From NCBI RefSeq assembly GCF_947623445.1, contig NC_135244.1, positions 6,138,001 through 6,202,000 of the forward strand: a stretch of DNA of 64,000 nt, given 5' to 3'. The translations under genes and the position numbers were made by a program. Source of the stretch: Clavelina lepadiformis. Its lineage: Eukaryota; Chordata; Ascidiacea; Aplousobranchia; Clavelinidae. A model generated the notes under the pieces. The model did no database searches and was not told the origin of the DNA. It saw only the letters and a program-made list of their open reading frames with translations. Positions 14,689 through 32,016 of the stretch are shown here, in pieces (positions within the stretch are counted from its first letter, which is position 1; each line of letters starts with the position of its first letter).

Positions 14689-17600
14689 TCATTCATTAAG
14701 TTTTTCAATCTTGATGAAGATTCCATTCTTTGGTTTCAAAGTCATCAACGGCTGAAACTCAGGCTTAGGGCATTCACTGTCAGTCGAAAAGCGAAACTGC
14801 TGCAAAGCTTTTGCCAGAACAACTTTGATCTCGGCCATGGCAAAATTTTTACCAATGCAGTTCCTGTGTTTAGAAAGATTTAAAGGTTTTTTGAACCAGT
14901 ATACGATCGTGATCAATACTACTGAACATAGTAAACGTGCAGAGTACTGAATACTACTGAAGGACAGTCAACCTAGAATCTAGATCAACAACAATATTTG
15001 TTCAGTAACTTGGTAAATATTTGAGTCAATGATAAAGCAAGAAAATCATCTAGCTGAACCTCTGCTTTTAAATTTTTAACTTGCGATAACTAATGCCTTT
15101 TCGACTAGCTGGTAACAAATAACAATAGCTGTGAACCTAGGCAATGGGTTATCTTTTCTGATCCTATTTGTTACCAACAATTAATGACAAATAAAGGTTT
15201 TAGAACCATGAAACCTGTTAAACAAGGTTATTAGTAGGTACCTGCCAACTGCAAAGATATGTGTCACAGTACAAGTAAGCAAAAGACAAAGTTATATGGT
15301 TAATTTACCTGGGTCCAGCTGAAAATGGAATATAAGCATAGGGTGAACGTGTTTTAATGTTTTCTTGAGTAAATCTCTCAGGATCAAACACCTTTAAAAA
15401 TATTTTCAGTTATTTGCTACCATAGTTAATTGTGCACATTTTAAAACAACAATTTGTACAAACACACATCTGGATTTTTCCAGATTGATCGGTTCCGATG
15501 GACAGCAAAAATATTTATGTCGCAAGATGAACCTGCCTCCAAGGTTCGGGTGCAGCTGTCATCTGGCTACGTGTATAAATGCAGAGCTTAGCATTGAGCA
15601 AAATGCTAATAACAAATGATCAACTCTATCACTAAACATCAACTTTAAGCTTTCCATTGAAGTTTAAGTTATTCTTACAACAATCCCTTCCAAATCTTTC
15701 TGGTCTTTTCCAAAGCCTCGAGGAAAATTCATGGGCTGCGATAACGTACGAGCCATGCCATAAGCAGGAGGATATAGTCGCATGACCTCCTTTATAAATT
15801 TTACCAGATATTTAAAATTCCCCAAATCTTCCCTGAAAAAAAATCCTTATTGTTGCAACTCCTGTCATAAAACAAAACTTACATATATGCAATATGCATG
15901 TTAGGGTCTCATGCGCTTAAAATTCGTTTACGTTTAAGAATTTTTTTAACAACAACCACTGCAGATACTGTAGATTCTGTTTAATATATCCAACTTAGTC
16001 CAAGCCAATTTGGGGTTAAATGAACGATGAATTTATAAACCAGCACAGTTAAACCGAGGAATTACAATAAATCAGTGCAGTTCAATTTTTATATCTTGCA
16101 ACAAAGAACATAATGCACTTAACAAGTTTGTTAGTTGACACTCTTTGTTAGTTACTGATATACTGACCGGTGAGATCTTCTTAAGCCAAAGCAGACTTAT
16201 ATGAAAATAACAGGTGCAATAATGAATATGTTGGTATCAAATGTATTCATTGTTTACAATGAATAACTTATTTATATTGATTGCTCAAAATATACAATTT
16301 ATTAAAAATCATCATGAACAAATTCCTTAACTTTAGATTATTTTTACTTAATACCTAATACGAGATCATATTTTTCTAATTTGAAATGCACATGGAATTT
16401 TCGAAGAAAGTACTTCAATTTATTAACTTGGGTATTTTCTACAATATGTAAAAGTTTTGTTTCAGTGGATTCATCAAGTGGACTCTACTTTATTCATATT
16501 TCATCTAGAATTAAATTTTTGCATAAGTTACTTAGTAGCTTACACTGAATATTAATAAACATCATTCTCATACCAATCAACTGTCTTCTTGTTGCCAATG
16601 ACATGTTTTACATCTTCTCTGCATTTTTCTTGGTAATCAGGATGAAGAGCAAGGCAGTAAAAAGCCCAAGACAATGAAGTAGCGGTGGTGTCACTACCGG
16701 CGAGTGAAAACGAGTCAACTTCATTGCGGATTTCCAATTGACTTAATCCATTGCCATTTTCATCCTATATGGTAAATAGCATGTTTACGACAAATATCAA
16801 CGAAAAATATGGCGGATGAAAAGAGGAAGAAAATTATTATCGATGCTGTCAATGTGCTTGGCGTTGTTGTTTGAATTTAAAATATAGGTACCAGCTAGCC
16901 AGTTCTTTCTAATTACAACAAAGTACATACCGACTACAACGCATATCACTGTATGCAGCTACCAATTTCATCTTTGTCCAAAATAACATGTGATTTTTAC
17001 TATTCAATAAGTATTTTTTATCAAATACGTTAAAGATATAAAATAAAGAAATTCGTTATTTATCAAACAGCATGGACTGACCCCCCTGGTCTAAAGCAAC
17101 ACAATATTATTAAACTAATTTAAAGAAATGCATAAGGAGAAGGGTTACTTTAGTTAGCAAAAGAATGTCTAGAAAATCAAGTCGCTTTCCAGTAATTTTT
17201 TTGTATCCATCAACACTTTCATCATCAGCGAATTGGTCAGTTTCTGCTTGTTGAATTGCAGCATTTATTGAAGCTCTTCTTTCATCAATTATCTTAATAT
17301 TAAGAGCAATCCCTTATTACTGCTTTATTTTGCGATAACTGGAAATATAACTCTTCCACCAGAAATACATGCATAATTCTGAATTAATGTTTTATACCCT
17401 TTCATCAACATCATGAACATATTTGCAGAGCTTCGCAAACTTTTTACCACTTGGTGAGTGGAAATACATGAAGTCATTATGAAATATTGGATTGTGCATC
17501 CGACGAACAGCAAGCTCCGCCAAAGAACGTAATGCAGCAACGTACTCATTGCGATTACTTCGTCGAAAATATTATGTGGCAATAATTTATGAAAAAGTAA

Positions 17601-30300: not shown

Positions 30301-32016
30301 TTAAAATATTTTAAACTAGTTACTTATTTGCAATTTATGTTGCTGGTTACAAACCCCAATACTTACTGCTTCTTCTACAATCAGTATTTTTAAAAACTGT
30401 CTAAGATATTATTTGTGGGCTTGAACTGGAATAACCTATAATTGACAAGTAGGGTAGCAAACCCACAACTTGGTCGAAAAGTTTTACCACAAACGTATGG
30501 CCCCCATTAAGAATTTTGCATGATTAAATCATACATATATCTTTTAAATAAATGAATTGCTACCAGATACACCAGGTGAAAAGAATTAAAATAATGTAAC
30601 ATGTTCAAATCAGGCTGGGTATGCTTGTAAGCATCATGCTTATAAAAAGAAAAACTTTTATTTATAGAGTCAAAAAGTAAACATGTAATGGAGTGTTAGC
30701 ATGTAACAGGATGTTTTAATGGTAAGATGAAATGGGACAATTTAGTTTATTATGAGACGACATAATAGTGATATTACCTTAATCGTAGGGAAGTAACAAA
30801 GACACTTTGCAGCTCAGCGGGTGAAGATGCAAAGTATGTGGAGTAATTGCAAACAGCCGAACTAATGAAAGTAAAATATAACACACTAATTGTTTTTAAT
30901 AAAGAAAAGGCAATGCGATCACATGAAAACATTATGGCGATACTGTATATTAATTTGATCAATGGGACGTAGCAAAAACGCTTCGCAGCCCAAAAGATGA
31001 AGATTCAACATTTGTAAAGTAATTGTAAATGGAGGTAAATAACATTAAACGAATCTGAAAAGTCAACTCATGAAGAGGACACGAATTTTATTTATCAGAA
31101 AAAAATTGCAACCTAGAGGGTGGCAGGCCCCCTAATCAAAATAATATTGGTTTCGAAAATGAAAACCAGAAAATTTTAGATTCAGTTCTTAAAGACCCGA
31201 TAGTCTAACACTTACACAACAAAGTTCTTTCAATGACCATGTACTGTAATGTGCATAACCAATGCATAGTATTATACAAAAAATCAATACCTGCACTCTC
31301 TAGTATTGGTTTAATAACATCTGGATGAATACAGGTAAGGAACCATTTGAATGGGCCCAACCAGAAAGGCTTCAGTTTTGGATATTGACGAGTACGTTTG
31401 GCAAGTTCCAAAAATTTTTCTTGAGTAAGAGCACGCTGATAAGGTATAATTATCACCTCTTATTATATATCTTATATGTTATATTGCATGTTATTTACCT
31501 TAAACCGAGTGCGACAATTATATTTCTTAATTACTACAGTTTCCATGAGAAACGGTGCAGGCACAGGCTAAAATACAACATTCTGTAATGCAAGCAACCT
31601 TTTACACATTTTCTTTCTTTATTTTGAATTTGCATCCAGTTAGCAAATTCTTATTTACATGTCTATTGCAAATTGTTGTGTGGGCGTGTGTAAGGAAAAT
31701 GAAGCATGCACATATGAATGTATATTGTAAGCATGGACTGGACATTCCACAATGGCTTTCTATTTAAATTGCTGTAAGAGCAAAATAAACTTTTGACAAA
31801 AAATTTACATGTATATGATGTATGTATAAAACTTGGAAAAATAATCTGACTTACTTCCAACAAATGTCCAAGTAACCAATGAGGCTTAGTACTGTCTATT
31901 CCCTTTAGCATAGCTTGTCCTTTACGCCTCATGGCAAATAAAGGCATAAATAACTTGATCAAATAAAAGAAAGCAATTATGCACAATGCCACTATTATTC
32001 TCACAACCACATCCAT
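24313..32016 (-). CDS. CYP4F-like: CYP4-family cytochrome P450, gene 3
   Basis: Tandem duplicate of gene 2; microsomal CYP4-family monooxygenase, substrate unknown. Eleven coding exons in order: 31855-32016, 31291-31435, 28960-29092, 28488-28649, 27022-27181, 26433-26576, 26081-26271, 25237-25390, 25026-25124, 24867-24949, 24313-24487. Every exon has the same length as in gene 2, giving 535 residues. It has an N-terminal membrane anchor, WIGDGLL, FHFDILK, I-helix AGSDTTA with Ala324 instead of the usual heme-binding Glu, ExxR E381-R384, FDPERF and FSAGPRNCIGK with Cys480. Differences from gene 2 cluster in exon 5, residues about 217-234 (predicted F-G region). Intron 4 carries a nested pair of hAT elements absent from gene 2, and intron 2 a SINE-like repeat. 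Exon 11 and introns 8-9 look recently homogenised with gene 2. Confidence 0.9.
27312..28377. mobile_element. hAT-type transposon in intron 4 of P450 gene 3
   Basis: Bounded by a perfect 8-bp target duplication TCCTAGAT (27304-27311 and 28378-28385) and terminal inverted repeats TAGGGTTACCATA and TATGGCAACCCTA (12 of 13 pairs). Length is 1066 bp including a nested 330-bp element with its own target duplication. No transposase recognised, so it is non-autonomous. Gene 2 has no insertion in the equivalent intron, and the element plus duplication accounts for nearly all of the size difference (1306 against 191 bp). It therefore arrived after the gene duplication. Confidence 0.85.
27584..27913. 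mobile_element. Nested hAT MITE (330 bp)
   Basis: Inserted inside the 27312-28377 element. Perfect 8-bp target duplication GTATAGCA at 27576-27583 and 27914-27921. Terminal repeats are CAGTGGTGGGCAAACTG and CATTTGCCCACCCCTG, typical of hAT elements, with a few mismatches. No coding capacity recognised. Confidence 0.85.
29165..29395. repeat. SINE/MITE-like repeat, copy 3, in intron 2 of P450 gene 3
   Basis: Third member of the family at 11901-12110 and 22480-22720. It has the GGTATAACATGATAATCTT opening, GGAAAGTCTTTGCAAGACT, GTTACCGAACTAACCTTTG and ATAATGCCCGAAATTAGAA. Right of that is GTTTGAACCACTTAG, which might be a degenerate tRNA-type promoter read from the other strand. Confidence 0.6.

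Follow-up and report, generated by a model that had tools for sequence, protein, structure and literature searches.

The CYP4 cluster and its I-helix residue

The window analysed here is a 64,000-nucleotide stretch of chromosome 5 of the ascidian Clavelina lepadiformis (positions 6138001-6202000), in a genome searched at 209,060,895 bases in 95 contigs. Its minus strand carries four CYP4-type cytochrome P450 genes in tandem. The interval 14689-32016, whose ends are the gene 2 stop codon and the gene 3 start codon, holds a duplicated pair that has alanine at the I-helix position of the heme-anchoring glutamate. Gene models were built with a purpose-written spliced aligner that required GT..AG introns and allowed a GC donor with a penalty; the GT..AG introns of genes 1-4 are partly so by construction, because the aligner demands them. 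Eleven exons were modelled for each gene, and the spliced translations are free of stops. Genes 2 and 3 are complete (ATG at 22302 and stop codon ending at 14689 in gene 2; ATG at 32016 and stop immediately past 24316 in gene 3), while the N-termini of genes 1 and 4 are less certain.

Residue 324 is alanine (codon GCC) in genes 2 and 3 and glutamate (GAA) in genes 1 and 4. The alanine lies opposite Glu310 of rabbit CYP4B1, and none of the 28 I-helix columns compared contains a gap across 25 sequences (rabbit CYP4B1 and 24 genes of this genome); no glutamate has therefore shifted to a nearby position in the pair. The spliced models and the gap-free alignment confirm the contrast with FEGHDTTA of genes 1 and 4 that an earlier reading of the window, made from the letters without database searches (the sequence-only reading), had drawn, and the glutamate elsewhere in genes 2 and 3 that would count against it was not found in these columns. 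Sequencing error is an unlikely source of Ala324, because both copies carry GCC among differing silent codons (AGT/AGC, GAC/GAT, ACC/ACG). The preceding residue is leucine in gene 2 and phenylalanine in gene 3 and the glutamate-type genes. With Ala324, genes 2 and 3 lack the I-helix glutamate of covalent-heme CYP4 omega-hydroxylases and belong, descriptively, with the natural CYP4 variants that have another residue at that position.

The WHRNR, KExxR, FDPERF and FSAGPRNCIG motifs are present and intact in genes 1-4, the P450 domain features (heme-loop cysteine, ExxR, meander) are all found, and genes 2 and 3 retain the I-helix DTT. The gene 2 protein, the only one of the four scanned, matched Pfam PF00067 (p450) at 3.2e-103. 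It is 42% identical to rabbit CYP4B1 (166/394 aligned core positions), where the P450 family rule asks for some 40% identity or higher with a named CYP4; this identity and the tree place described below put the pair in the CYP4 family, with rabbit CYP4B1 as the sole named CYP4 in the tree. A 508-residue draft of gene 2, without exon 9, had as its best PDB match 6c93 (336.2 bits), narrowly ahead of 5t6q (333.7 bits); these are, respectively, the E310A mutant and the wild type of rabbit CYP4B1 (PMC9916508).

Features of the cluster, in window coordinates
Feature	Position	Strand	Description	Basis
Gene 1	6812..10100	-	Glu-bearing paralogue, FEGHDTTA	modelled exons 6812-10082; ATG 10100 read by eye
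Gene 2	14689..22302	-	CYP4-type P450, 11 exons, 535 aa, Ala324 (SLAGSDTTA)	spliced alignment, coding-sequence check, Pfam p450
Gene 2 exon 11 (heme-loop Cys)	14692..14863	-	172/172 bases identical to gene 3 exon 11 (24316-24487)	
Gene 2 exon 7 (I-helix exon)	16574..16764	-	codons CTC GCC GGT AGT GAC ACC ACC GCT	
Gene 3	24313..32016	-	tandem duplicate of gene 2, 11 exons, 535 aa, Ala324 (SFAGSDTTA)	
Gene 3 exon 7 (I-helix exon)	26081..26271	-	codons TTC GCC GGT AGC GAT ACC ACG GCC	
Gene 4	36286..44642	-	Glu-bearing paralogue, FEGHDTTA	N-terminus uncertain; possible Met 44633, read by eye

A fifth member of the cluster, also glutamate-bearing, lies on the opposite strand (L009, G000:C5:6223501-6233500); a single 344-base exon there corresponds to exons 6 and 7 of the other members.

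Placement of the pair and other glutamate-less CYP4 genes

In a maximum-likelihood tree of the same 25 sequences, with motif columns masked and the root unknown, genes 2 and 3 are sisters (support 100/100). Together with gene 4 and C5_6.23M they make up a clade of four (96/93), which gene 1 joins to form a five-gene chromosome-5 clade (100/99); the other three members keep the glutamate. The pair stayed in the five-gene group when C1_22.6M, C3_15.6M, C9c and C6c were dropped and when the protein was split at the I-helix (14 of the 25 rows), with Shimodaira-Hasegawa approximate likelihood-ratio support of 98 for the reduced tree, 98 for the N-terminal part and 88 for the C-terminal part. We conclude from these sequence comparisons that the loss of glutamate is derived and lies on the stem of the pair, which is where the sequence-only reading's proposal, placing the Glu-to-Ala change on a CYP4 tree, leads when carried out with 24 genome genes and rabbit CYP4B1. 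A topology in which the three glutamate-bearing chromosome-5 genes form a clade sister to the pair was not rejected by the approximately unbiased (AU) test (p=0.113), and it too leaves the loss on the pair's stem.

We also considered a non-CYP4 P450 carrying an AGxDT motif as the source of the pair's I-helix exon, and rejected this on a genome search with gene 3 exon 7. The three glutamate-bearing chromosome-5 exons matched all 64 residues at 59-64% identity (E 1.6e-23 to 1.5e-21), and the next-best gene reached E 1.6e-15 at 50%.

Glutamate is kept in 14/24 CYP4-type genes of this genome and absent from 10/24: genes 2 and 3 (Ala), C7a and C7b (Gly), C3_15.6M (Arg), three C7_13 genes (Ala, Ala, Gly) and two C3_25 genes (Ala). 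The 24 genes are a lower bound drawn from the matches listed in the genome searches; L024 and L026 were modelled and excluded as non-CYP4 P450s, L025, L029, L030, L033, L034, L036, L037 and L001-L008 lie outside the set, unmodelled, and the models of C6c and C9c are doubtful or incomplete. Codons at the glutamate position differ by group, the pair having GCC and the others GGA/GGG, CGA, GCT/GGT and GCA. The tree requires a minimum of four changes between glutamate and another residue, C3_15.6M sitting on a long branch. Because the root is unknown, loss and ancestral absence are indistinguishable for the C7_13/C3_25 group. On this tree, then, there are two clear losses (the pair; C7a/b) and up to four.

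A single glutamate-less ancestor for all ten genes was rejected (AU p=3.7e-9), as was grouping the pair with C7a/b (p=1.9e-4), with C3_15.6M (p=0.014) or with the C7_13/C3_25 group (p=0.0016), although these groups were picked after viewing the tree and the p-values are optimistic. By these tests the glutamate-less class is polyphyletic in this genome. The sequence-only reading had described the pair as a subgroup next to canonical paralogues: glutamate-bearing paralogues do adjoin it, but the description understates the matter, with eight further genes of the genome lacking glutamate and the change documented elsewhere.

Several of these loci have features of their own. C3_15.6M (L010, G000:C3:15607501-15617500) reads FRGHDTTA, with Arg (CGA) at the glutamate position, and is poorly modelled upstream of the I-helix exon. 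L016 and L017 (G000:C7:16.53 Mb) are adjoining CYP4 genes with Gly (FGGHDTT), whose glutamate was lost independently of the loss in genes 2 and 3. L027, L028 and L031 (C7:13.38-13.42 Mb) and L032 and L035 (C3:25.16, 25.24 Mb) form two deeper groups of CYP4-like genes in which the residue is Ala or Gly, in the motifs SGGHETV/SAGHETV or SAGQETT/SAGQGTI. L019 and L020 (C9:14.84, 14.86 Mb) are near-identical CYP4 copies, of which the L020 model is without the conserved heme loop at the C-terminus and seems to be damaged.

Other animals, among them Hydra and vertebrates, are already known to lack this glutamate in some CYP4s; the pair is a real new case of the kind. Its I-helix aligns without gaps with that of rabbit CYP4B1 (5t6q, 6c94; E310A mutant 6c93), and 6c93 has the same alanine. 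Native rabbit CYP4B1, unlike the pair, has glutamate and covalent heme (PMC9916508), and the pair further differs in having Ser for His and other changes. Among CYP4B1 sequences E310 is often replaced by Ala or Gly, mostly in tropical birds and in some mammals (PMC9916508); the residue replaced is the same, but the lineage is another and the events were presumably independent. Hydra vulgaris CYP4LA2 (AGHDTI) and CYP4LB1 (AGHDTT) have Ala beside four glutamate-bearing paralogues (PMC8110760, Table 1), and so resemble the pair as invertebrate CYP4s with Ala alongside EGHDTT paralogues in one genome, although they keep the His; that paper, in which 'covalent' occurs 0 times, seemingly does not discuss their heme linkage. 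CYP4F8 and CYP4F12 had been cited by the sequence-only reading as natural glycine variants, which is partly borne out for human CYP4F8 by a reference title naming Gly-328; CYP4F8, which is reported to hydroxylate PGE2 at C19 and not at the omega position (PMC6747359), is glutamate-less like the pair but has Gly rather than Ala and belongs to a vertebrate lineage. EGHDTT is reported for Ciona robusta '4F6' (PMC8537429) and for three Capitella CYP4s (PMC4229089), and a partial search of the published P450 literature found no glutamate-less ascidian CYP4.

Divergence between genes 2 and 3

Synonymous divergence between the two copies is mosaic, being highest at 0.44 in exons 1-2, intermediate at 0.13 in exons 3-6 and 0.15 in exon 7, and lowest at 0.05 in exons 8-11. 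Approximate Fisher tests of exons 1-2, on contrasts picked after viewing the data, gave p=0.003 against exon 7, 5e-6 against exons 3-6 and 4e-10 against exons 8-11. Exon identity is 126/162 and 122/145 in exons 1 and 2, ranges from 142/160 to 159/162 across exons 3-7, and reaches 152/154, 97/99, 80/83 and 172/172 in exons 8-11. Introns 8 and 9 are identical at 110/112 and 76/76 bases, against 123/161 aligned bases plus 223 gap positions in intron 6, 466/649 plus 133 gap positions in intron 7, and 300/373 aligned bases in intron 10. This pattern suggests gene conversion over much of the 3' part of the pair; alternatively, exons 1-2 might be unusually diverged.

The sequence-only reading had dated the alanine change before the pair's duplication. 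What stands of this is that the change is derived in the pair's ancestry, as the tree indicates; the date itself is inseparable from later spread, and is unproven because the mosaic divergence leaves room for gene conversion to have carried the change from copy to copy. Alanine could thus have arisen in one copy after duplication and been copied to the other, as the contrast between 0.44 in exons 1-2 and 0.05-0.15 elsewhere, and between the nearly identical introns 8 and 9 and intron 7, would allow. Nevertheless, exon 7 itself differs at 11/191 bases and its flanking introns 6 and 7 have diverged (judged without a baseline from unrelated introns), so that it bears no sign of recent conversion; its comparison with exons 8-11 gave p=0.07, and exons 1-2 might be the outlier. 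We regard copying of the alanine as unlikely, though worth keeping in view. The simplest account is a single change in the common ancestor, predating duplication.

Exons 8-11 with introns 8 and 9 correspond to near-identical segments at window 14692-15832 and 24316-25390. The duplicated pair is flanked by an 83.5% identical repeat (window 11462-11849 and 34680-35047; alignment length 388).

Accompanying changes, constraint and expected activity

Seventy-four core columns are invariant in 13 glutamate-type rows (12 from the genome and rabbit; C6c and C9c excluded). At nine of them gene 2, gene 3 or both depart from the invariant residue, in rabbit numbering from Glu310: F112C, L184M, T306S and F309L (both in gene 2 only), E310A, H312S, E339D, V375A and L407V. 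The altered active site proposed by the sequence-only reading is thus consistent with changes at further conserved positions accompanying E310A. F112 and V375 presumably line the pocket, as P450 substrate-recognition sites in general would suggest. Modelling of CYP4F2 places Phe327, just before the heme glutamate, as the roof of the site near the heme (PMC6167488); gene 2 has Leu at the matching position. The same 74 columns are altered at 10 positions in C7a/b, 10 in C3_15.6M, 19 in the C7_13 genes and 23 in the C3_25 genes. Across the four glutamate-less groups and 73 columns invariant in 13 glutamate-type rows, F112, D229, T306, L371 and V375 changed in at least three groups when any member was counted (5 columns against 1.2 expected, P=0.0026), and only F112 when all members were required (1 against 0.14, P=0.13); since columns vary in variability, such recurrent co-changes are a lead only.

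We consider it probable that genes 2 and 3 encode working microsomal CYP4 monooxygenases that lost the glutamate on the pair's stem, hold heme through the Cys thiolate alone and have relaxed omega-selectivity. In CYP4B1 the ester between Glu310 and the heme 5-methyl forms autocatalytically, and the rabbit E310A mutant shows less omega- and more omega-1 hydroxylation at an unchanged overall rate (PMC9916508); a review of CYP4F enzymes states that with Glu-to-Ala the covalent bond is lost and omega-selectivity with it (PMC12380495). Since the pair has no carboxylate next to the heme 5-methyl, its heme would be held only via the Cys thiolate, as in most P450s, and fatty-acid-like or xenobiotic substrates would be oxidised less strictly at the omega position (more omega-1 or in-chain), as by rabbit E310A. 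By analogy, the shift would be in the same direction as in CYP4B1 E310A and CYP4F8. We infer the non-covalent heme, selectivity, substrate class and expression of the pair from sequence. Some observations weigh against this view: E310D and E310Q lower rates but raise the omega/omega-1 ratio (PMC6167488), so that omega-selectivity does not strictly depend on the ester; the co-changes F112C, H312S and V375A could matter as much as E310A; and the ratio of nonsynonymous to synonymous substitution rates (dN/dS) between genes 2 and 3, about 0.24-0.26 and as expected for constrained proteins, is hard to read for the whole pair given its mosaic divergence.

The pair might instead be drifting toward loss of function, the missing glutamate reflecting relaxed constraint and no new activity. 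Its stem branch is long (0.60), nine of 74 otherwise invariant positions are altered, and with gene 1 as outgroup both copies show excess changes, against C5_6.23M (gene 2, 70 v 26; gene 3, 68 v 27; chi2 20.2, 17.7) and against gene 4 (70 v 34 and 68 v 35; chi2 12.5, 10.6). The excess weakens, however, with rabbit as outgroup (41 v 30 and 40 v 30 against C5_6.23M, chi2 1.7 and 1.4; 45 v 25 and 43 v 24 against gene 4, chi2 5.7 and 5.4), and the glutamate-less C7a/b and C3_15.6M also have ten altered positions each. Each of the two genes moreover reads through 535 codons without a stop and keeps its splice sites and P450 motifs, and the dN/dS value points the same way; we think drift improbable. 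That a different residue takes over and makes a covalent or otherwise strong contact with the heme, leaving the pair covalently bound after all, seems to us very improbable: Asp327 of the DTT motif is the only Asp or Glu within four residues of position 324, and it is also present in the 14 glutamate-bearing genes (as Glu in C6d).

A broader proposal, which we find doubtful, is that the CYP4 clan of this ascidian has repeatedly (two clear times, up to four) dropped the glutamate via Ala, Gly and Arg, with recurrent remodelling of F112, D229, T306, L371 and V375, yielding a natural series of omega-to-in-chain switches. Were the proposal true, the glutamate-bearing tandem paralogues would be built-in controls. 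Arguments over whether omega-hydroxylation needs the heme ester have drawn largely on engineered mutants (for example PMC6167488, PMC9916508). Genes 1 and 4 and a third glutamate-bearing paralogue on chromosome 5, set against genes 2 and 3 and the Gly and Arg relatives, would permit the comparison in natural variants of a tunicate, the tunicates being the vertebrates' closest relatives.

Elsewhere in the window, a 538-codon open frame at 50813-52426 on the minus strand carries PBZ zinc-finger (3.5e-26) and FHA (7.8e-5) domains, a combination that we take to resemble the DNA-repair factor APLF. A fragment at 33858-34118 on the plus strand is like the dimerisation region of hAT transposases, just under the Pfam cut-off (20.3 v 21.4 bits).

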